DNA of 7,003 bases from an uncultured Oscillospiraceae bacterium (GTDB taxonomy: Bacteria; Bacillota; Clostridia; Oscillospirales; Ruminococcaceae). The stretch is from the NCBI GenBank assembly GCA_934456315.1, contig CAKSHG010000109.1, positions 1-7,003 of the forward strand, in the 5' to 3' direction. Positions 1-7,003 of the stretch are shown in pieces; the stretch's first letter is position 1, and every line of letters starts with the position of its first letter. The notes below the pieces were generated by a model. It ran no database searches, was not told the DNA's origin, and was given only the letters and a program-made list of their open reading frames with translations. The translations under genes and the position numbers were made by a program.

Positions 1-593
1 CGGTCCATTGTGATCTTCATACGTCCGCCGCCGCTTGCGATCTTGCCGTCAAATGTGCTGTCGTTCAGCTCCTTGAACAGATCCTCGAGCTGCTCGAGGT
101 AGATCTGAGCAGTCTGCGGAGGTACGTCACGGCCGTCCAGCAGAGCGTGTACTCTTACCTTGGAGATACCCTCGGACTTTGCCTTCTTTATCATGTTGAA
201 CAGGTGCTTGATGTTGGAATGTACGTTGCCATCGGACAGCAGACCGATGAAATGCATGGTGGAATTCTTGCTCTTTACGTTAGCAACCAGTTCCTTCCAT
301 GCGTCGGATTCGTACATCTTGCCGCTCTCGATGCTCTCGTTAACAAGCTTTGCGCCCTGAGAATAGATCTGACCGCAGCCAATTGCATTGTGACCTACCT
401 CGGAGTTACCCATGTCGTCGTCGGAGGGCAGACCTACTGCGTCGCCGTGAGCCTTGAGACGGGTGTTCGGGCAGTTAGCCAGCATCCAATCGAGAGTGGG
501 AGTGTTAGCCTCGCCCACTGCGTCGCCCAAGTGGGTCTTGGAGAAGCCAACGCCGTCCATTACTACTAATAAAATCGGTTTCTTTGCCTTCAT
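1..593 (-). CDS. gpmI: 2,3-bisphosphoglycerate-independent phosphoglycerate mutase, N-terminal 197 codons (3' end outside window)
   Basis: Interconverts 3- and 2-phosphoglycerate in glycolysis without a 2,3-BPG cofactor, using two metal ions (alkaline phosphatase superfamily). Seen: ATG at 593-591 with AAGGAG (603-608) nine bases upstream; metal-ligand Asp13 in VVMDGVGF; MGNSEVGH at residues 61-68 with nucleophile Ser64; SDGNVHS at 120-126 with His125; LDGRDVPP at 152-159. All are family signatures. The frame stays open to base 1, so roughly the last 60% of the protein lies beyond the left edge. The block around the nucleophile (GLPSDDDMGNSEVGHNAIG) and the ASGGGRMKITMD stretch at 186-197 resemble, from memory, the plant/kinetoplastid-type long iPGM rather than the usual bacterial form (GLPEGQMGNSEVGH). 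It is third in the order pgk-tpiA-gpmI, 83 nt after tpiA, with a hairpin between them. Lys codons are nearly all AAG, fitting high expression. Confidence 0.95.
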   Translation of the reverse strand, partial: MKAKKPILLVVMDGVGFSKTHLGDAVGEANTPTLDWMLANCPNTRLKAHGDAVGLPSDDDMGNSEVGHNAIGCGQIYSQGAKLVNESIESGKMYESDAWKELVANVKSKNSTMHFIGLLSDGNVHSNIKHLFNMIKKAKSEGISKVRVHALLDGRDVPPQTAQIYLEQLEDLFKELNDSTFDGKIASGGGRMKITMD

Positions 594-623
594 AGTTTGT
601 TTCTCCTTACTGTTTTAGAGATG

Positions 624-653
624 AAAACGGAGCAGCGGTGAGCGCCGCTCCGT
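624..653 (-). terminator. Intercistronic hairpin with short U run after tpiA
   Basis: Reading the minus strand after the tpiA stop, an 11-bp stem can form with arms ACGGAGCGGCG and CGCTGCTCCGT (one G-U pair), a 5-nt loop CTCAC, and TTTT at the base. The U run is short (four bases, one of them in the stem). It ends about 15 nt before the gpmI ribosome binding site, so it more likely causes partial termination or protects the pgk-tpiA mRNA end than fully separates gpmI. Confidence 0.5.
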
Positions 654-676
654 GTGTATTTTTCTGCAAGTGCAGT

Positions 677-1450
677 TTAGCCGTTAACTGCTGCGGTGAT
701 GATGGTGGTGAAGTCAGCAGCCTTCAGGGAAGCGCCGCCGATAAGACCGCCGTCAACGTTGGTCTTGGAAAGCAGCTCTGCAGCGTTCTTTGCGTTCATG
801 GAACCGCCGTACTGAACTGTGATGGTTTCAGCAACGTCAGCGCCGTAGAGCTTAGCGAGGGTTGCACGGATAAATGCGCAAACTTCCTCTGCCTGGTCAG
901 CGGTAGCGGTCTTGCCGGTGCCGATAGCCCAAACAGGCTCGTAAGCGATAACGCACTTCTTGAGGTCGTCAGCGGAAATGCCGAAGAAATCAAGCTTGAT
1001 CTGGCGAGCGATAACTTCCTCGGTGATGTTGCACTCGCGCTCCCACAGAAGCTCGCCTACGCATACGATGGGCTTCAGACCAGCAGCGAGGGCAGCCTTT
1101 GTTCTCTTGTTAACGGTTTCGTCGGTTTCAGCGAAGTACTGACGGCGCTCGGAGTGACCGAGTACAACGTACTCAACGCCCATCTCTGCCAGCATGTCAG
1201 CAGAGATCTCGCCGGTGAACGCGCCGCTCTTCTCGAAGTGGCAGTTCTCTGCGCCGATCTTGATGTTAGTGCCTGCTGTTGCAGCAAGTGCGGTTTCAAG
1301 GTTGGTGAAAGGTACGCATGCTACGATCTCAACGTCCTTAACGTCAGCTACCATCGGCTTGAGCTCCTCGAGCAGTGCCTTAGCCTCGGGACGGGTCTTG
1401 TTCATCTTCCAGTTGCCGGCGATAATAGCCTTTCTTACATTCTTCTTCAT
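677..1450 (-). CDS. tpiA: Triosephosphate isomerase
   Basis: Interconverts dihydroxyacetone phosphate and glyceraldehyde 3-phosphate; cytosolic, normally a homodimeric TIM barrel. Seen in the 257-aa protein: GNWKMN with catalytic Lys15, VLGHSERR with electrophile His99, AYEPVWAIGTGK with general base Glu171 and flexible loop 6 just after it, YGGS at 214-217 and the phosphate-binding DGGLIGGA at 233-240. Length is normal and no key residue is missing. The start is supported by AGGAGG (1459-1464) eight bases upstream of the ATG. It lies 79 nt downstream of pgk and 83 nt upstream of gpmI on the same strand, and is very probably co-transcribed with pgk. Long open frames on the opposite strand here are codon-bias shadows. 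Confidence 0.98.
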   Translation of the reverse strand: MKKNVRKAIIAGNWKMNKTRPEAKALLEELKPMVADVKDVEIVACVPFTNLETALAATAGTNIKIGAENCHFEKSGAFTGEISADMLAEMGVEYVVLGHSERRQYFAETDETVNKRTKAALAAGLKPIVCVGELLWERECNITEEVIARQIKLDFFGISADDLKKCVIAYEPVWAIGTGKTATADQAEEVCAFIRATLAKLYGADVAETITVQYGGSMNAKNAAELLSKTNVDGGLIGGASLKAADFTTIITAAVNG

Positions 1451-1490
1451 GATTTATTCCTCCTAGTACGGATTTATGTTGTCAGCACAA

Positions 1491-1519
1491 TATAAGGCGG
1501 AGTGTTCCCCCGCCTTATA
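1491..1519 (-). other. Perfect inverted repeat (stem-loop) between pgk and tpiA
   Basis: Two 10-bp arms, TATAAGGCGG and CCGCCTTATA, pair perfectly around a 9-nt loop, starting 11 nt after the pgk stop codon. On the transcribed strand it is followed by TTGTGCTGAC with no U tract, so it is not a standard intrinsic terminator. Such intercistronic stems often mark RNA processing or block 3' exonucleases and so set relative transcript levels; that role is inferred here. Confidence 0.55.
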
Positions 1520-1529
1520 GCGTTGTAAA

Positions 1530-2747
1530 TTACTTGTCCTGGATAGCGTCGATTCCGGGCAGACCCTTGCCTTCGAGGTACTCGAGGGAAGCGCCGCCGC
1601 CGGTGGAGATGTGGCTCATCTTGTCAGCGTAGCCGAGGTTGATGGCTGCGGTAGCGGAGTCACCGCCGCCGATGATGGTGGTAGCGTCAGCAGCTGCGAG
1701 AGCCTCGCAAACAGCAACAGTACCCTTCTTGAGAACAGGGTTCTCAAATACGCCCATCGGGCCGTTCCATACAACGGTCTTAGCAGACTTAGCAGCCTCT
1801 GCGAAGAGCTCCATGGTCTTGGGACCGATATCCAGACCCATCATGTCAGCCGGGATCTTGTCGGAATCAACAACGGAAACCTCGATCGGAGCGTCGATAG
1901 GATCAGGGAATGCCTTAGCGATAGTGGTATCAACAGGGAGGAGGAGCTTCTTGCCGAGCTTCTCTGCCTTCTCGATCATCTGCTTGCAGTAGTCGATCTT
2001 CTCGTCGTCAACGAGGGAAGTACCTACCTCATAGCCCTTAGCCTTGAGGAAGGTGTAAGCCATACCGCCGCCGATGATGAGGGTGTCGCACTTCTCGAGC
2101 AGGTTGGAGATAACGTTCAGCTTATCAGCAACTTTAGCGCCGCCGAGGATAGCAACGAACGGACGAACGGGGTTCTCAACAGCGTTGCCGAGGAACTCGA
2201 TCTCCTTGTTCATCAGGTAGCCGACAGCGGTTTCCTTAACGAACTTGGTAACGCCAACGGTGGAAGCGTGAGCTCTGTGGGAAGAACCGAAAGCGTCCAT
2301 TACGAAGATACCATCGGTCAGGTCAGCCAGCTCCTTGCTGAACTCCTCGCCGTTCTTGGTTTCTTCTGCGCCGCGGAAACGAGTGTTCTCGAGAACAACG
2401 ATCTCGCCGTCCTTCATCTCTGCAACAGCCTTCTTTGCGATATCGCCGGTAACCTTGTCGTCCTTGGCGAAAACTACCTTTGTATTTACAAGCTCAGCCA
2501 GTCTGTCAGCGGCAGCCTTCAGGGAGAACTTCTCCTCCGGACCGTTCTTCGGCTTGCCGAGGTGAGAGCAGAGGATAACCTTTGCGCCGTTCTCTACCAG
2601 CTTGTTGATGGTGGGGAGAGCTGCGGTGATACGGTTGTCGTTGGTGATCTTGCCGTCCTTCATGGGAACGTTGAAATCAACGCGGACAAGAACCTTCTTG
2701 CCCTTGACATTCAGGTCTTCTACGTTCTTCTTGTTCAGTTTGCTCAT
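1530..2747 (-). CDS. pgk: Phosphoglycerate kinase
   Basis: Makes ATP by moving phosphate from 1,3-bisphosphoglycerate to ADP; cytosolic monomer with two Rossmann-like lobes. Seen in the 405-aa protein: RVDFNVP at 22-28 and Arg39 (substrate binding), SHLGKP at 61-66, ENTRF at 120-124, [12 protein letters not shown] at 151-162, GGAKVADK at 202-209 (start of the nucleotide lobe), GLDIGPKT at 304-311, WNGPMGVFE at 327-335, GGGDS at 360-364 and STGGGASLE at 381-389. Length is typical and all substrate-site blocks are present. The usual GGGDT of the nucleotide loop reads GGGDS, a mild substitution. The ATG is preceded by AAAGGAAA (2756-2763). It is first gene of the pgk-tpiA-gpmI cluster. gap is not adjacent; the gene upstream encodes an HPt protein instead. 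Codon use is strongly biased (Lys almost only AAG), as expected for an abundant enzyme. Confidence 0.98.
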
Positions 2748-2829
2748 GGTTATTATTTCCTTTCATAGTGAAATATTGAACATACTACGGTACATTGCAT
2801 TTATCATGCTAAAATACCCTACAGATATT

Positions 2830-2858
2830 ATTTTACTATATTTCCGTAAAATTTGCAA
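2830..2858 (-). promoter_or_regulatory. Candidate sigma-A promoter for pgk (proximal)
   Basis: On the minus strand, TTGCAA (2853-2858; 4/6 match to TTGACA) and TAAAAT (2830-2835; 5/6 match to TATAAT) are separated by exactly 17 bp. Transcription would start near 2823, giving a leader of about 75 nt before the pgk start codon. The region is AT-rich, so some chance match is possible. Confidence 0.5.
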
Positions 2859-2865
2859 GCCCTTT

Positions 2866-2893
2866 TTTATATAATTTCTGCAATTTTCGTGAA
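2866..2893 (-). promoter_or_regulatory. Second, weaker candidate promoter for pgk (distal)
   Basis: On the minus strand, TTCACG (2888-2893; 4/6) and TATAAA (2866-2871; 5/6) are 16 bp apart. The -35 box overlaps the left arm of the inverted repeat at 2889-2910, so a protein bound there could block it. It competes with the proximal candidate, and sequence alone does not decide between them. Confidence 0.3.
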
Positions 2894-2910
2894 CTTATTG
2901 TGTTCACAAT
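2889..2910. promoter_or_regulatory. Overlapping inverted repeats, operator-like, upstream of pgk
   Basis: Two overlapping dyads share the same bases: GTGAAC-7nt-GTTCAC (2889-2907) and ATTGTG-TT-CACAAT (2897-2910). The half site TTCACAA (2903-2909) equals the half site of the redox repressor Rex (TTGTGAA-N4-TTCACAA), and Rex controls energy-metabolism genes in many Firmicutes. The spacing here is not canonical for Rex (9 nt between GTGAA and TTCAC, or a 2-nt centre), so Rex is only a suggestion. The dyad lies 14 nt after the HPt stop and upstream of pgk. As a terminator it would be poor: a 6-bp stem with no U tract. Confidence 0.45.
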
Positions 2911-2924
2911 GCTGATTTTAGGGT

Positions 2925-3278
2925 TTAGACGTCCAGGGAGCCTGCGGCTGTGCGGAGTTTTTGCTCCATCAGCTGCGCGGCAGGGAGCATTTCCACTGCC
3001 TTTGCGGACTCACCCGCGCGGAAAAGCTCGGTCATTGTGCAGTAATGCTCAAATAGCCCGTCGAGCGCAAGGTTTCCGGTGGAGCCTTTCATCATGTGGA
3101 CGCACTCCATCGCCTTTGGCCAGTTCTGTTCCCTGCACAGCTCCGTCAGCCTTTCGATATCGTTGGAGCGGAGATACATCTTCATGCAGGAGAAGTAGAA
3201 CTCCTTGCTGTTCAGAAACCGCTCCCTTGCGCTCTCCGAGTCAAATCCGAGAGCGTCAAGCTGTCTGAAATCCACCAT
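2925..3278 (-). CDS. Orphan histidine phosphotransfer (HPt) domain protein
   Basis: A 117-aa, apparently all-helical cytosolic protein consisting of little more than one HPt domain (about residues 10-112). The key motif is VHMMKGSTGNLALDGL at 60-75, with His61 the likely phosphorylated residue; H-x-x-K-G followed by GN and a conserved Leu is the HPt signature. HPt proteins pass phosphate between response-regulator receiver domains and hybrid kinases. No kinase or receiver gene lies in this window, so its partners are unknown. There is no signal peptide or membrane segment. The ATG is 10 nt after the stop of the large LOTUS/DUF3825 gene; the likely ribosome site GAGGG (3286-3290) overlaps that gene's stop codon, so translation is probably coupled. 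It is the last gene of its operon, and I see no convincing terminator before pgk. The family call is fairly sure from the motif; the role in this operon is inference. Confidence 0.8.
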   Translation of the reverse strand: MVDFRQLDALGFDSESARERFLNSKEFYFSCMKMYLRSNDIERLTELCREQNWPKAMECVHMMKGSTGNLALDGLFEHYCTMTELFRAGESAKAVEMLPAAQLMEQKLRTAAGSLDV

Positions 3279-3288
3279 CGCGCCGCCC

Positions 3289-5532
3289 TCAGTCTGCCGC
3301 GTCGGCGGATTCCTCTCCGTCGTCGGAATCGTCCGAGGTGCTGATATCCGTGGTGAGCCACTCGCTGTTCAGCCGACACAGCAGGCGCGCGTCGATGTAC
3401 GCCTGCGCTAGTGTCAGTATCGTCTGACCCTGGTAGTTTCCGGCGGGGGTCTGCTCCACAACGAGAGCCACGTCCGGCTTTTCCTCGTCCATGAGGCACA
3501 GCGGGAGCATCAGCGACATGGAATTGCGCTTGGGGAAGTACGACGGTATCGCCGTCTTGTAGTTGCGGCTCACGCGCTTCTTCGCAAGCTCAATGGAATC
3601 CTTGATTCGGTTCTGTATGCGCATGAAGAGCCTGTCATTGTCGTTCACGATCTCCCGAAGCTGCTCATAGAGCGCACGCTTCCCGTAGCCGTCGGCGGAA
3701 CGTATGCGCGAAGCAAGTTCCCTTGCCTCGGGGCAGTCGGTGAACTGCTCCTCCAGGAACGCCAGCGGCAGACGGCTGATATTGTCCAGGATTATGTGGT
3801 CGAAATCCGTCAGCAGCTGCTTGGTGACGTCGAAGAACAGCTGCTCGCCGCGGTCGAAGTAGACCGGCGGCTGCGGAAGCGGGCTGAAATAATTCACGAT
3901 CTGCTTGCCGAGGTTACGGTTCGCCGCAGTGCAGAAACCTGCGAATTTCCATTCGGTTTCGCTGCCGGGTTCGTTCGGTATGAAGCACGCGTAGATATCG
4001 TCGTAATGCCTGTCGACCAGTCCGGTATTGAAGCACGCGAACTTTCTGTCCGAGGAAATGCACACCTTATTCTCGCGGGTCAGGCGGTAGAATGTATACT
4101 TGATGTACTGGATAAGAATGAAATGATCGCTGCGGCGCGCGCCCTCAAAATCCCAGCTCTCGCTGATGGACTTTTCAGCAAGCTCCGACAGGAACGAATT
4201 CCAGGAGCCGAGGTACGCGAAATTCTCAAGCTGCTTTCCGGGCTGGACCGGGCGCTGTGAGCCGTCCCGGCTCATGGTGTCGACAAAGCTTAGGAACCAC
4301 GGTCTGCCCTCGTATGCGGAGGGCTTCAGCGTTAGCTCCACGCTGGTGCCATCGGAGCGCTTCCAGCGGGTCGGGAAGATCATCTTTCCCTCGTAGAAGC
4401 GGATATTCCCGCCCTGCTTCGCCTGCTCGAAATCCTCGGAGATATCACCGCGCAGGTCGGGGATCTCGCGGCTTATCCCGGTGCGTTCGAGGAACTGCGC
4501 CAGTATCATCAGAGGCTTCGGCGGAAGGTTGCAGAAATCCTCAAGCGCTCCCTCCGGGATCTCGACCGCTTCGGTCGACGCCGGCTGCGCCTGCGCTGAC
4601 TGCGCCGTGCGGAATGCGGGGCGTATCGAAGCGGGCGGCTCCGCGCGCTGCACGCTGACGCGCGCAGCAGGTCTGCCCGGCTGATACTTGTCGGAATGGC
4701 GCAGGGTCACCATGACCTGCGGCACTCCGCCGAGTACGACGTCCTCAAGGTCGAGGTACTCCATCTGCGACAGCAGGTCCTTCATCTTGAAGAATCCGAA
4801 CCGGCTGCGGTCGATGTTGTTATCCGACAGGAACTTGCTGACCGCCGCCATATGCTGCGGTATGTCAAACGGAAAATTGGAGGTCAGTAGGCGGTATATC
4901 TCCGCCTTGTCCTCGCTGCTGACCACTGCCTGCTGTACCGCCGGACGGTGATACGACATCGGCTGAACGCTGCTGTATATCTGCGTTTTCTCGAACGAGA
5001 AATACAGACTCTTTCCGCGCGGGCTGATGTTCTTGGTGATGATACCGTTTACGAGGTAGCCGTCCGTGCAGTAGCCGATCGGGAAAATGTACCTGTCGAA
5101 CAGGAAATCCAGCTTTCCCTCCTCCTTGGCGCGGGCAAAGCTGTCGTAGATCTCCTGCTTCATCTCCTGGACGGTCAGACCGCTTCCAAGCACCTTTGTG
5201 AGCGCGTACAGCGACTGCTGCGACATTTCGATGATGTCGTCGTTTAAAATAATGCTCTTGTTGCCGAAAAAGCTGTCTGCGGGGTGACCGTTCTCACCGG
5301 AGCCATTCCAGCGTTTTACGATAACGTAGGAATCCTGGTTGTACCTGGGAGTTCCGAAAAGCTCCGGCGCAGCCTCGATAAGTTCGTGGAAATCACTGAA
5401 CCCGAGCTTTTCCATTGTGTAGCCGTTGGTAGCGAGCCACTCCTCTACCCTGGATATGCGATAAACTCCCTCGTCAGGGAACTGCCTGAAAATGCAGTTG
5501 CCCAGTTCTTCTGTCATTTCTTTGCTAAGCAT
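3289..5532 (-). CDS. LOTUS/OST-HTH-like and DUF3825 domain protein with a duplicated module
   Basis: A 747-aa soluble protein, probably RNA-binding. Parts in order: LOTUS-like winged helix about 8-75 (YRISRVEEWLATNGY ... LGFSDFHELIEAAPELFG); unrecognised module X1 about 104-182; second LOTUS-like segment about 208-280 (LGF replaced by FGFFKMKDLL); Ala/Pro/Gln-rich linker 281-330; module X2 about 336-419; DUF3825 about 435-726; acidic Ser/Asp tail 727-747. DUF3825 is the firmest call: FNTGL at 501-505, NYKTAIPSYF at 657-666, LMLPLCL at 674-680, and YQGQTILTLAQAYIDARL at 700-717 then EWL. LOTUS domains bind RNA (G-rich or G4 RNA in some studies), and DUF3825 commonly follows them in bacteria; its activity is unknown to me. 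The start has AAAGGA (5538-5543) five bases upstream. It lies 17 nt after the membrane-protein gene and 10 nt before the HPt gene. Its codon use looks less biased and richer in GCG/CGC than the glycolytic genes. Confidence 0.85.
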   Translation of the reverse strand: MLSKEMTEELGNCIFRQFPDEGVYRISRVEEWLATNGYTMEKLGFSDFHELIEAAPELFGTPRYNQDSYVIVKRWNGSGENGHPADSFFGNKSIILNDDIIEMSQQSLYALTKVLGSGLTVQEMKQEIYDSFARAKEEGKLDFLFDRYIFPIGYCTDGYLVNGIITKNISPRGKSLYFSFEKTQIYSSVQPMSYHRPAVQQAVVSSEDKAEIYRLLTSNFPFDIPQHMAAVSKFLSDNNIDRSRFGFFKMKDLLSQMEYLDLEDVVLGGVPQVMVTLRHSDKYQPGRPAARVSVQRAEPPASIRPAFRTAQSAQAQPASTEAVEIPEGALEDFCNLPPKPLMILAQFLERTGISREIPDLRGDISEDFEQAKQGGNIRFYEGKMIFPTRWKRSDGTSVELTLKPSAYEGRPWFLSFVDTMSRDGSQRPVQPGKQLENFAYLGSWNSFLSELAEKSISESWDFEGARRSDHFILIQYIKYTFYRLTRENKVCISSDRKFACFNTGLVDRHYDDIYACFIPNEPGSETEWKFAGFCTAANRNLGKQIVNYFSPLPQPPVYFDRGEQLFFDVTKQLLTDFDHIILDNISRLPLAFLEEQFTDCPEARELASRIRSADGYGKRALYEQLREIVNDNDRLFMRIQNRIKDSIELAKKRVSRNYKTAIPSYFPKRNSMSLMLPLCLMDEEKPDVALVVEQTPAGNYQGQTILTLAQAYIDARLLCRLNSEWLTTDISTSDDSDDGEESADAAD

Positions 5533-5549
5533 TTTAGTCCTTTCTCAAA

Positions 5550-6581
5550 TCACGCTTCTGCGGTATCCTCCGTGATATCCTCCAGATCCTCAATATAATC
5601 GTAATCCTCGTAATAAATGTAGTTCACCATGTCGGCAAGCTCTTCAACGTCCATATCCTGCTGGAACATTCCATCTATCTCAAGGCGGAAGCTGGTCAGC
5701 CTGCTTTCAGATACAAAGCTGAAATGCGACACCGGTATCCCCATGTTTTTATATGCGGCTATGACCGTGCGGCATTCCTGCGCAAATTCCCTGGTGCTGG
5801 AATATGTTCCGCTGAACTCCACGGAAATATCAACGATATCTCCTGCGGACAGCGTGTCCCATGTCTTTCCCGAGCCGCTGGAAAGGTCAGCCTCAACTGA
5901 CAGCGTTGAGATATCCACGGTGCGGCACAGCTCCTTGTAGCTCTGCTCGTAGATCCGGGCGGCGATGATCCTGCCGCTCTGCACCTCGCGGATCTGTGTT
6001 TCCTCGCGGTTCAGCGACGCTGAAAGTATGCATGACGCAACAACTATCGCGGCGGTTATGCAGATACACGGAACATGTATCCTAAGCCGCTTTCCTGAAA
6101 CGAACCAGCTTAGCAGCAGCTCCGCTCCCACGAAAACCGCCGCCAGCGGCGCAAGCTTCGCGATGAGAAGATAGTCAGAGCTTCCCGAGATCAGCACGCA
6201 CAACGTGACGATCCCAAGGAATATCAGCGTCAGCGCCAGACTCACAAGTCCAGCTCCGCTTTTCACGGTGCCCATGGTGAATTTCAGAACATTCCGGCGG
6301 GGCGGTTTCTGCTTTCTGACATTCTGCGGGCGTGCTCCGGTCTGCTGAAGCACCTTATCAAGCGCGTCAAGTATCTCCTGGTCGCGGCGCGCAGTTTCCT
6401 GCTGCGCAAGCTCCGCCTGTTCAAGGATATCCTCTCCGGAAGCGGGGGTGTCTGTGCTTTCAGGCTCTGCTGCTTCTTCGGTTATCTGCTCCGTGAACTG
6501 CGCCGAAAACTGCATTGACGACAGTTCAGGGATCTCGCTTTTCAGTTCCTCTTTTGATTCTTCTTTAGTCGGGACAGCCAT
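5550..6581 (-). CDS. Three-TM membrane protein of unknown function, first gene of the LOTUS/DUF3825-HPt operon
   Basis: I recognise no family. The 343-aa protein has an acidic, Glu/Gln-rich, probably helical N-terminus (1-82, possible coiled coil about 50-80), a basic Arg/Lys/Pro stretch (84-100), three hydrophobic segments (about 109-131, 137-161, 169-190), then a soluble C-terminal part (191-343) ending in a Tyr/Asp/Glu-rich tail (321-343). Basic residues before TM1 and between TM2 and TM3 (GKRLR) suggest the N-terminus is inside and the C-terminal domain outside, where it could sense or bind something; that is inference from the positive-inside rule. I chose the ATG at 6581, not an in-frame ATG 60 nt upstream, because AAAGGAGG (6587-6594) sits five bases before it and the upstream ATG has no ribosome site and falls in the leader. 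A near-perfect promoter drives it. The next gene starts 17 nt after its stop. Confidence 0.85.
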   Translation of the reverse strand: MAVPTKEESKEELKSEIPELSSMQFSAQFTEQITEEAAEPESTDTPASGEDILEQAELAQQETARRDQEILDALDKVLQQTGARPQNVRKQKPPRRNVLKFTMGTVKSGAGLVSLALTLIFLGIVTLCVLISGSSDYLLIAKLAPLAAVFVGAELLLSWFVSGKRLRIHVPCICITAAIVVASCILSASLNREETQIREVQSGRIIAARIYEQSYKELCRTVDISTLSVEADLSSGSGKTWDTLSAGDIVDISVEFSGTYSSTREFAQECRTVIAAYKNMGIPVSHFSFVSESRLTSFRLEIDGMFQQDMDVEELADMVNYIYYEDYDYIEDLEDITEDTAEA

Positions 6582-6586
6582 TTCGT

Positions 6587-6594
6587 CCTCCTTT
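6587..6594 (-). promoter_or_regulatory. Ribosome binding site fixing the start of the three-TM protein
   Basis: AAAGGAGG on the minus strand, five bases before the ATG at 6581-6579. It lies inside the longer open frame that begins at 6641, so it decides in favour of the shorter 343-aa product. Confidence 0.85.
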
Positions 6595-6613
6595 CTGTAA
6601 ATATAGGGATTCG

Positions 6614-6675
6614 CTGAATAAATCGTCAGACGCGTGATCATGTTCGTCCGGACGGGTCTATCTTGTTTTATTCAG
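6614..6675 (-). other. Possible structured mRNA leader of the three-gene operon
   Basis: Perfect 9-bp arms CTGAATAAA (minus strand, first) and TTTATTCAG enclose 44 nt. Inside are a 4-bp AGAC/GTCT pair and the 10-bp palindrome CGTCCGGACG (6645-6654). The element lies within the roughly 130-nt leader between the predicted start of transcription (about 6715) and the ribosome site (6587-6594), and ends about 20 nt before that site. I match it to no known riboswitch. The outer stem is AT-rich and may be weak. Confidence 0.35.
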
Positions 6676-6721
6676 TTTTTCCCTGCAATTATGCGAAATT
6701 TAAAAATATCACACTGATTTA

Positions 6722-6750
6722 ATTATAGCAAAATAAGATTCCTCTGTCAA
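6722..6750 (-). promoter_or_regulatory. Perfect-consensus sigma-A promoter of the three-gene operon
   Basis: On the minus strand, TTGACA (6745-6750) and TATAAT (6722-6727) are both exact matches with the ideal 17-bp spacing, and TGC directly before the -10 adds an extended -10 element. Transcription should begin near 6715. No operator-like dyad overlaps it. Confidence 0.88.
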
Positions 6751-6805
6751 TGGAAATAAGCCCGAAACACTGCGCAATCAGGCGAATGCCGGAACATACA
6801 GATAT

Positions 6806-6828
6806 CCCCCTTCCGTAACGAAAGGGGG
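6806..6828 (-). terminator. Strong hairpin after the right-edge gene, no U tract
   Basis: Minus-strand arms CCCCCTTTCG and CGGAAGGGGG form a 10-bp stem (one G-U pair) with a TTA loop, starting 10 nt after the stop codon of the right-edge gene. The position fits a terminator or mRNA 3' end, but the bases after it (ATATCTG) are not a U run, so termination may need a factor or the stem may only stabilise the 3' end. Confidence 0.5.
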
Positions 6829-6838
6829 ACGATGTTCA

Positions 6839-7003
6839 TTACAGGGACTTGATGATTGTACCCATCAGACCAGGAACAGCGCTGATGGCGTTGGATTCGT
6901 CGGTATCGATGTGCATTGCATCTGCAAACTTGTCGCTGACTCTGATGACAACATCGCCGAGGATCGCGTTTCTGCCCTCTGTGTTGGTCTTTACCCATAC
7001 GAT
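6839..7003 (-). CDS. C-terminal 54 codons of an unrecognised protein (5' end outside window)
   Basis: One minus-strand frame stays open from the right edge to TAA at 6841-6839, in phase with clean Clostridia-like codons. The visible end begins IVWVKTNTEGRNAILGD and closes with AVPGLMGTIIKSL. It alternates beta-like (VVIRVSD) and short helical stretches and has no membrane segment. I cannot assign a family from this fragment. Codon bias (AAG for Lys, ATC for Ile) resembles the glycolytic genes and may mean good expression. It is followed by a hairpin and then a separate promoter, so it belongs to a different transcription unit from the three-gene operon. A longer open frame overlapping it in another phase is Arg/His-rich and looks like a shadow. 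Confidence 0.75.
   Translation of the reverse strand: MVWVKTNTEGRNAILGDVVIRVSDKFADAMHIDTDESNAISAVPGLMGTIIKSL

Follow-up and report, generated by a model that had tools for sequence, protein, structure and literature searches.

A conserved pair of membrane-protein and LOTUS–DUF3825 genes in a genus of Ruminococcaceae, accompanied in one clade by a histidine phosphotransfer gene

Introduction

Do genes that stand close together on one strand, under one promoter, make up one system? The question is raised by a stretch of 7,003 nucleotides (nt) from an uncultured Oscillospiraceae bacterium (GTDB family Ruminococcaceae; contig CAKSHG010000109.1 of assembly GCA_934456315.1, positions 1 to 7,003), the whole of which we call the window. 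Its minus strand carries three co-directional genes, with gaps of 17 and 10 nt between them, for a membrane protein, a large protein with LOTUS and DUF3825 domains, and a histidine phosphotransfer protein (HPt). A first-pass annotation of the window had proposed that this operon links an envelope or extracellular signal, or a phosphorelay, to RNA control. Its coordinates and gaps are confirmed here, and we find that the operon consists of two units of different age: the membrane and large genes stand together across a genus, and the HPt gene is confined to one clade of it.

LOTUS proteins of animals organise RNA granules. For bacteria, the available excerpt of PMC2848206 describes almost all OST-HTH (LOTUS) proteins as fused to DUF88, and their genes as having no conserved neighbourhood with known RNA-processing systems. 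Our literature search found no paper for 'DUF3825' and, among the matches listed, none that connects a bacterial LOTUS protein with a partner of the membrane or HPt kind. With one membrane partner throughout a genus, a bacterial LOTUS protein acquires a location (the membrane) and an input (the envelope) that can be tested.

The membrane and large genes are a conserved pair

A scan of one genome per species gave 39 loci that encode relatives of the large protein. The membrane gene lies directly upstream of the large gene in 36 of them, which is 36/36 where the contig permits; in the three misses (L007, L010 and L016; L numbers are loci, G numbers genomes) 73-377 bases separate the beginning of the large gene from that of the contig. 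The genus set of 43 genomes was reached through the genome of locus L001, its assemblies come without completeness figures, and the window's own membership rests on near-identity to L001 (99.5% for the presumed pgk). The large gene is found in 40/43 of these genomes, at one locus per genome, and the membrane gene in 37/43. Neither is found in G407, G409 and G412; where the membrane gene alone is missing (G419, G422, G425), the large gene sits at a contig edge.

Could these neighbours share only a strong promoter, with the envelope and RNA proteins having separate jobs? The single consensus promoter that had been proposed over the operon does match at 12/12 positions, TG included, and it is perfect in 36/37 membrane-gene loci, the window among them (the exception, L002, has 11/12). 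Moreover, standalone DUF3825 proteins, and membrane homologues without DUF3825, occur elsewhere. But the adjacency is kept although other neighbours vary (among the neighbours listed), and the membrane and large genes co-occur strictly, which makes separate jobs quite improbable. As a special mark of the operon, the promoter is ruled out: consensus promoters are common in this genus, each of the 43 genomes holding 98-285 perfect TTGACA-N17-TATAAT sites, against 0-2 for a reversed-pattern control.

Outside the genus, the picture is sparser. DUF3825 of any kind occurs in 11/148 genomes of the family (genus members G001 and G105 included) and in 12/249 of the phylum (G001 included), where 12/14 matches fall in open frames of 255-296 amino acids (aa), too short to leave room for LOTUS domains. 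DUF3825 occurs in 9 family genomes that are not of the genus, and in none of these does a membrane homologue occur within 1.5 kb of the DUF3825 gene, the one in G158 being 77 kb distant. Non-genus DUF3825 genes, whether standalone or with LOTUS, do at some loci have small membrane- or lipoprotein-like genes next to them (Table 1), which may point to a broader association between DUF3825 and membrane proteins.

Table 1. Features of the operon in the window (positions on the 7,003-nt stretch), and DUF3825 neighbours at other loci
Feature	Position	Strand	Remark
Sigma-A-type promoter TTGACA-N17-TATAAT, extended -10 TG	6722..6750	-	12/12 consensus positions
GGAGG ribosome-binding site of membrane gene	6587..6591	-	from sequence
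Membrane protein, 343 aa, predicted N-in/C-out	5550..6581	-	positive-inside rule
N-tail motif ELSSMQFSA, possible docking motif	6501..6527	-	only HPt-bearing loci and close kin
Predicted cytoplasmic helix, residues 49-82, LLxALDEVLE-type motif	6336..6437	-	motif largely kept across genus
Three transmembrane helices, residues 111-131, 138-162, 170-192	6006..6251	-	
Predicted extracytoplasmic alpha/beta domain, residues 200-323	5613..5984	-	YfjL_C-like by weak matches, better in distant relatives
[LOTUS-X]x2-DUF3825 protein, 747 aa	3289..5532	-	
LOTUS-like domain 1, residues 3-72	5317..5526	-	homologous to domain 2, hhalign E 3.2e-6
X1 domain, residues 86-190	4963..5277	-	
LOTUS domain 2, residues 203-280	4693..4926	-	structural match
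X2 domain, residues 328-424, tentative ParE/RelE-like fold	4261..4551	-	
DUF3825, residues 451-725	3358..4182	-	Pfam E 3.5e-66
Orphan HPt, 117 aa; phospho-acceptor candidate His61 at 3096-3098	2925..3278	-	only window clade
Small membrane-/lipoprotein-like neighbours of DUF3825	L040, L042 (162-170 aa); L041, L043 (340-360 aa); L054:3685-4398		

The HPt gene belongs to one clade

The HPt gene adjoins the large gene in only 4/37 judgeable loci (L001-L004), plus the window; L027 and L036 are left out of this count, their contigs ending inside or right at the end of the large-gene match. A genus-HPt profile, run over the open reading frames (ORFs) up to 3 kb downstream of the large gene in the 37 loci, found none beyond L001-L004, and in a tree of 40 large proteins the five HPt-bearing loci are one clade (100/100). 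The HPt is thus ruled out as a core member of the operon, and the three-gene grouping first proposed is conserved as regards the membrane and large genes, not as regards the third. Other clades have different third genes close behind the large gene (~330-350 aa in L011, L012, L016, L037 and L038; 151 aa in L006 and L007), as if the third place were exchangeable.

Profile and motif both bear on the identity of the HPt itself. The Pfam family (PF01627) matches at E 9.2e-5 (23.0 bits, under the cut-off of 24.6), and H61, K64, G65 and S66, which include the HxxKG mark of HPt families, are identical in 5/5 sequences (the window and L001-L004).

Might the HPt be the functional centre, taking phosphate from a kinase, handing it to a response regulator and controlling the LOTUS protein directly? 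Its coupling to the large gene is tight in all five loci, with gaps of 10 (window), 13 (L001), 19 (L002), -4 (L003) and 9 nt (L004), despite an identity to the window that drops to 29% (L003). Related orphan HPts adjoin regulators with receiver (REC) and HD domains in other genus members, and a gene for a CheY-like response regulator (E 7.8e-26; L009:8285-8710) follows 128 nt behind the large gene of a locus without HPt. On the other hand, the HPt was not found in 33/37 judgeable loci, and no kinase or REC gene is among the ORFs of the window, its operon included. We therefore regard a central HPt as very unlikely.

Where the HPt came from is a separate matter. Orphan HPts of ~120 aa adjoin REC-HD regulators in many genus members (L138-L143, L144-L167); the regulator of L139, as an example, matches Response_reg at E 3.2e-21 and HD_5 at E 1e-27, and we take these regulators to be of the HD-GYP kind. 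The operon HPts form one clade (98/95) that groups with the HPts beside REC-HD regulators, in no settled branching order and with a long-branch warning for L003. The four HPt-operon genomes lack the closest type of REC-HD regulator (best E 6.5e-55 or weaker), as do several other genus genomes. We considered a move of the HPt from a REC-HD locus and rejected it: the HPts do group, but neither their order nor an absence of the regulator that is not specific to HPt-operon genomes speaks for a move, and for the same reasons we do not choose between orthology and paralogy. Some Hpt match is present in all 43 genus genomes, so phosphorelay parts are at hand.

The large protein

The first-pass annotation had called the large protein a LOTUS/DUF3825 protein. 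The DUF3825 part is secure, since the profile (PF12873) is matched over its full length, positions 1-238 of 238. The LOTUS part is weak by the window's own sequence, where OST-HTH (PF12872) reaches E 0.063 and 13.6 bits against a cut-off of 23.8; the same family is found at E <= 0.01 in 17/60 relatives of the large protein (best 3.5e-6). For domain 2 the assignment is backed by structure: the predicted model has a winged-helix fold close to solved LOTUS domains, its four best structural matches all being LOTUS proteins (TDRD7, TDRD5, Tejas and again TDRD7). A Pfam scan of 60 proteins gave no match at E <= 0.01 to DUF88/NYN, the usual bacterial companion.

In X1, 42/105 columns are at least 98% identical across 50 long relatives. 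The N-terminal half of DUF3825 aligns with X2 (hhalign 48%, E 1.9e-4; reversed controls 0.39-0.57) and with X1 only at E 0.02, a suggestive sign from sequence comparison that it may be a third X unit, related to X2. For residues 436-726, neither Foldseek nor VIA brought up a match that stood out; because one domain can fill a match list, and DUF3825 was not folded alone, we claim no new fold for it.

The membrane protein and its relatives in sister genera

Three hydrophobic segments (residues 113-131, 139-157 and 172-190) agree with the three transmembrane (TM) helices first described. Over 29 membrane proteins, lysines plus arginines number on average 6.5 ahead of TM1, 0.1 between TM1 and TM2, and 2.3 between TM2 and TM3, and by the positive-inside rule the N-terminal tail is predicted to lie inside and the C-terminal domain outside. 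We prefer the start at 6581 over 6641 because of the GGAGG at 6591-6587 and because the MAVPTK start is common to L001, L002 and L004. The predicted model has a mean pLDDT of 73.4, with mostly high confidence in the alpha/beta domain (~200-323), and includes the helix 49-82. Foldseek returned no match to it at E <= 0.001, and neither did a search of a viral library at the same threshold. The ELSxxQF motif of the N-terminal tail occurs in HPt-bearing loci in our alignment (A2), and in 21/120 metagenome homologues, all of at least 44% identity to the window, others in that range being without it. As a dock for the HPt it was rejected, being inseparable from descent.

What do relatives of this protein stand beside elsewhere? 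When 148 family genomes were searched with a profile, distant homologues turned up in 29, G001 and G105 not counted, with best E-values per genome of 5.5e-8 to 4.3e-32. The homology spans the TM region and the outer domain (profile positions 97-316 at E 4.3e-32). The outer domain matches YfjL_C at E 4e-6 in L183, just under cut-off; a LiaI/LiaF-type TM match (PF18917) reaches E 9e-4 in L182, below cut-off, and LiaF-TM appears in 3/29 genus membrane proteins (best 0.026). In 29/29 of the family genomes with distant homologues, the gene for one specific TM protein lies at most 601 nt from a membrane-homologue match (52 nt in L180); a second match in G141 is without one.

Eight sister-genus loci were read, as far as their ends. 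Of these, 7 show the TM-protein gene, 6 a zinc-finger-like gene and 5 the final part of a sigma-70-like gene; the order is sigma-70 region-4 gene, zinc-finger-like gene, TM-protein gene, and the membrane homologue closes the operon. The profiled sigma ends match Sigma70_r4_2 (L183, E 1.7e-8; L179, E 1e-12). The zinc-finger-like genes of L182 (E 0.049) and L176 (E 0.038) are both under cut-off, and that of L183 gave no match. These genes would be an extracytoplasmic function (ECF) sigma factor and its anti-sigma factor. None of the three stands beside the window's membrane gene. The TM-protein gene is found in 0/43 genus genomes against 41/148 family genomes as a positive control, from which we conclude that the membrane protein of this genus has the LOTUS gene, and not the TM-protein gene, as its neighbour.

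DUF3825 on phages and plasmids

DUF3825 without LOTUS matches in 7/50,697 phage records and 9/72,556 plasmid records (H1-H16; loci L184-L220). Gp21 of Listeria phage A006 is a DUF3825 protein, encoded between lysin and integrase and beside AcrIIA1; on a Geobacillus plasmid, DUF3825 lies near an abortive-infection gene, and on a 3.1-kb Enterobacter plasmid it is one of four listed genes. Standalone DUF3825 is a candidate phage-exclusion effector, and its travel as mobile cargo is, apart from the operon, a lead towards an effector domain of a new kind.

Given that LOTUS-free DUF3825 is carried by mobile elements, the operon itself might be a defence or abortive-infection unit, in which DUF3825 would be toxic or act against phages and the membrane protein would sense or restrain; the tentative ParE/RelE-like fold of X2 would fit. 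But the pair is genus-core (40/43), at a single locus per genome, and not patchy. PADLOC gave no family for the large protein or the HPt, its CARF_HEPN match (E 9.4e-4, 16.5 bits) falls on residues 32-118 of the membrane protein, that is, on the N-terminal tail and the first part of TM1, and the operon does not hold the protein set of any known anti-phage system in PADLOC. Immunity as the main job, one of the possibilities first raised, becomes less likely for these reasons, and we consider the defence unit improbable.

Flanking genes and divergence from L001

Downstream on the same strand lie genes that we take to be pgk, tpi and part of gpmI, and a phosphate propanoyltransferase (PTAC) gene ends upstream of the operon (Pfam E 4.6e-10). 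Between the window and L001, the operon proteins are 82, 78 and 68% identical, and those of pgk/tpi/gpm 98.4-99.5%. The ratio of nonsynonymous to synonymous divergence (dN/dS) is 0.113 for the large gene, 0.105 for the membrane gene and 0.191 for the HPt gene; all three look like real genes because such values indicate purifying selection.

The synonymous divergence also differs, being 0.21-0.31 for the glycolysis genes (window 1-2747) and 1.04-1.47 for the operon. Fast adaptive evolution of the operon was considered and rejected, and we claim no positive selection, because dN/dS is low and dS itself differs between the two sets. The contrast in dS may come from recombination, codon bias or rate differences.

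A possible membrane-anchored RNA-control module

We tentatively favour the reading that the membrane protein and the two-LOTUS DUF3825 protein form a membrane-anchored RNA-control module. The extracytoplasmic YfjL_C-like domain would read the state of the envelope, and the cytoplasmic tail, via the helix with the LLxALDEVLE-type motif, would keep the LOTUS protein membrane-bound and change how active it is. Structured or G-rich RNA might then be captured by the two LOTUS domains, and the X and DUF3825 domains, with their many conserved polar residues, could act on it, probably as an enzyme. In the one clade that has it, the HPt would have come into the operon and would feed a phosphorelay signal to the module. 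Of the two inputs first proposed, the envelope link keeps the support of the adjacency (36/36) and the co-occurrence of the pair; the phosphorelay would be at most a one-lineage add-on.

A bolder version, which we hold to be somewhat unlikely, has an evolutionary direction as well. The LOTUS gene would have taken the place of the sigma-operon partner of the sister genera, so that an envelope sensor with a sigma-factor partner was rewired to a LOTUS RNA effector, and the signal would act on RNAs at the membrane, not on transcription, one lineage having added the HPt. If true, this would be an uncommon natural case of a sensor family rewired from transcription to RNA, with a sigma factor as its partner elsewhere and an RNA-binding protein in this genus.

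Several observations weigh against an RNA-control module of this kind. The top VIA Z of domain 2 is 7.9, slightly short of the 8 at which the tool draws its line, and the next matches, other winged helices as well as unrelated chains, reach Z 6.2-6.6. Both LOTUS domains are acidic in the window (6 K+R to 13 D+E in domain 1, 8 to 11 in domain 2), which, judged by composition, would not be an obvious RNA surface. Animal LOTUS domains also bind a helicase, Vasa, according to the excerpt of PMC5458760. For DUF3825, no meaningful solved relative was found by sequence (best E 0.023, a designed protein), and Foldseek gave no match at E <= 0.001. Profile matches of the TM part in the genus are unspecific (DUF2417 in 17/29, best 2e-5). 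Outside the genus, LOTUS-DUF3825 proteins occur without the membrane gene (L054, L055, L058, L071). Within it, the membrane gene of L018 is preceded, on the other strand, by a sigma-70-type gene (Sigma70_r2 E 4.8e-8), and the absence of sigma and zinc-finger genes was observed beside the window's membrane gene, not searched genus-wide.

The main rival follows from the sister genera, since the sigma-factor operon there holds the same membrane protein family: the LOTUS domains could be DNA-binding winged helices, and the large protein a membrane-tethered transcription regulator that replaces the sigma-factor output. The large gene does adjoin the membrane gene where sister genera have the sigma-factor operon, and winged helices such as MCM8 (Z 6.5), TA0346 (6.3), SarS (5.8), PadR-type proteins (5.0-5.5) and TubR (5.1) are among the lower matches of domain 2. 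Yet its four best matches are all LOTUS proteins; binding to G-quadruplex (G4) RNA is reported for LOTUS domains, those of bacteria among them (Ding 2020, as cited in the available part of PMC12247748); and the LOTUS-like domains of Egl belong to its double-stranded RNA-binding region (PMC13186709, in excerpt). On this evidence, we think DNA binding unlikely, if by no means negligible.

Comparison with known systems

The operon and its parts can be compared with five known kinds of system. The OST-HTH-DUF88 (LK/NYN-type) nuclease proteins, in the excerpt of PMC2848206, resemble the large protein in joining single or duplicated LOTUS winged helices to another globular domain; in the large protein the place of DUF88 is taken by DUF3825 and X domains, and its gene has a membrane gene as conserved neighbour. 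The LOTUS proteins TDRD5, TDRD7, Oskar and Tejas are eukaryotic, unlike the large protein, and we know of no DUF3825 or comparable operon among them.

On the membrane side, the sigma-70/zinc-finger-like/TM-protein operon of the sister genera contains a homologous membrane protein (E down to 4.3e-32), but its partners are sigma and zinc-finger-like genes, whereas the partner in this genus is LOTUS-DUF3825. LiaF/LiaI-type envelope-stress membrane proteins show a weak TM-region match to relatives of the membrane protein, which differs from them in its extra YfjL_C-like outer domain and, in the window copy, in having no adjoining kinase or regulator gene. Finally, the orphan HPts beside REC-HD regulators of the same genus are alike in size and motif to the HPt of the operon, which stands instead behind a LOTUS gene.

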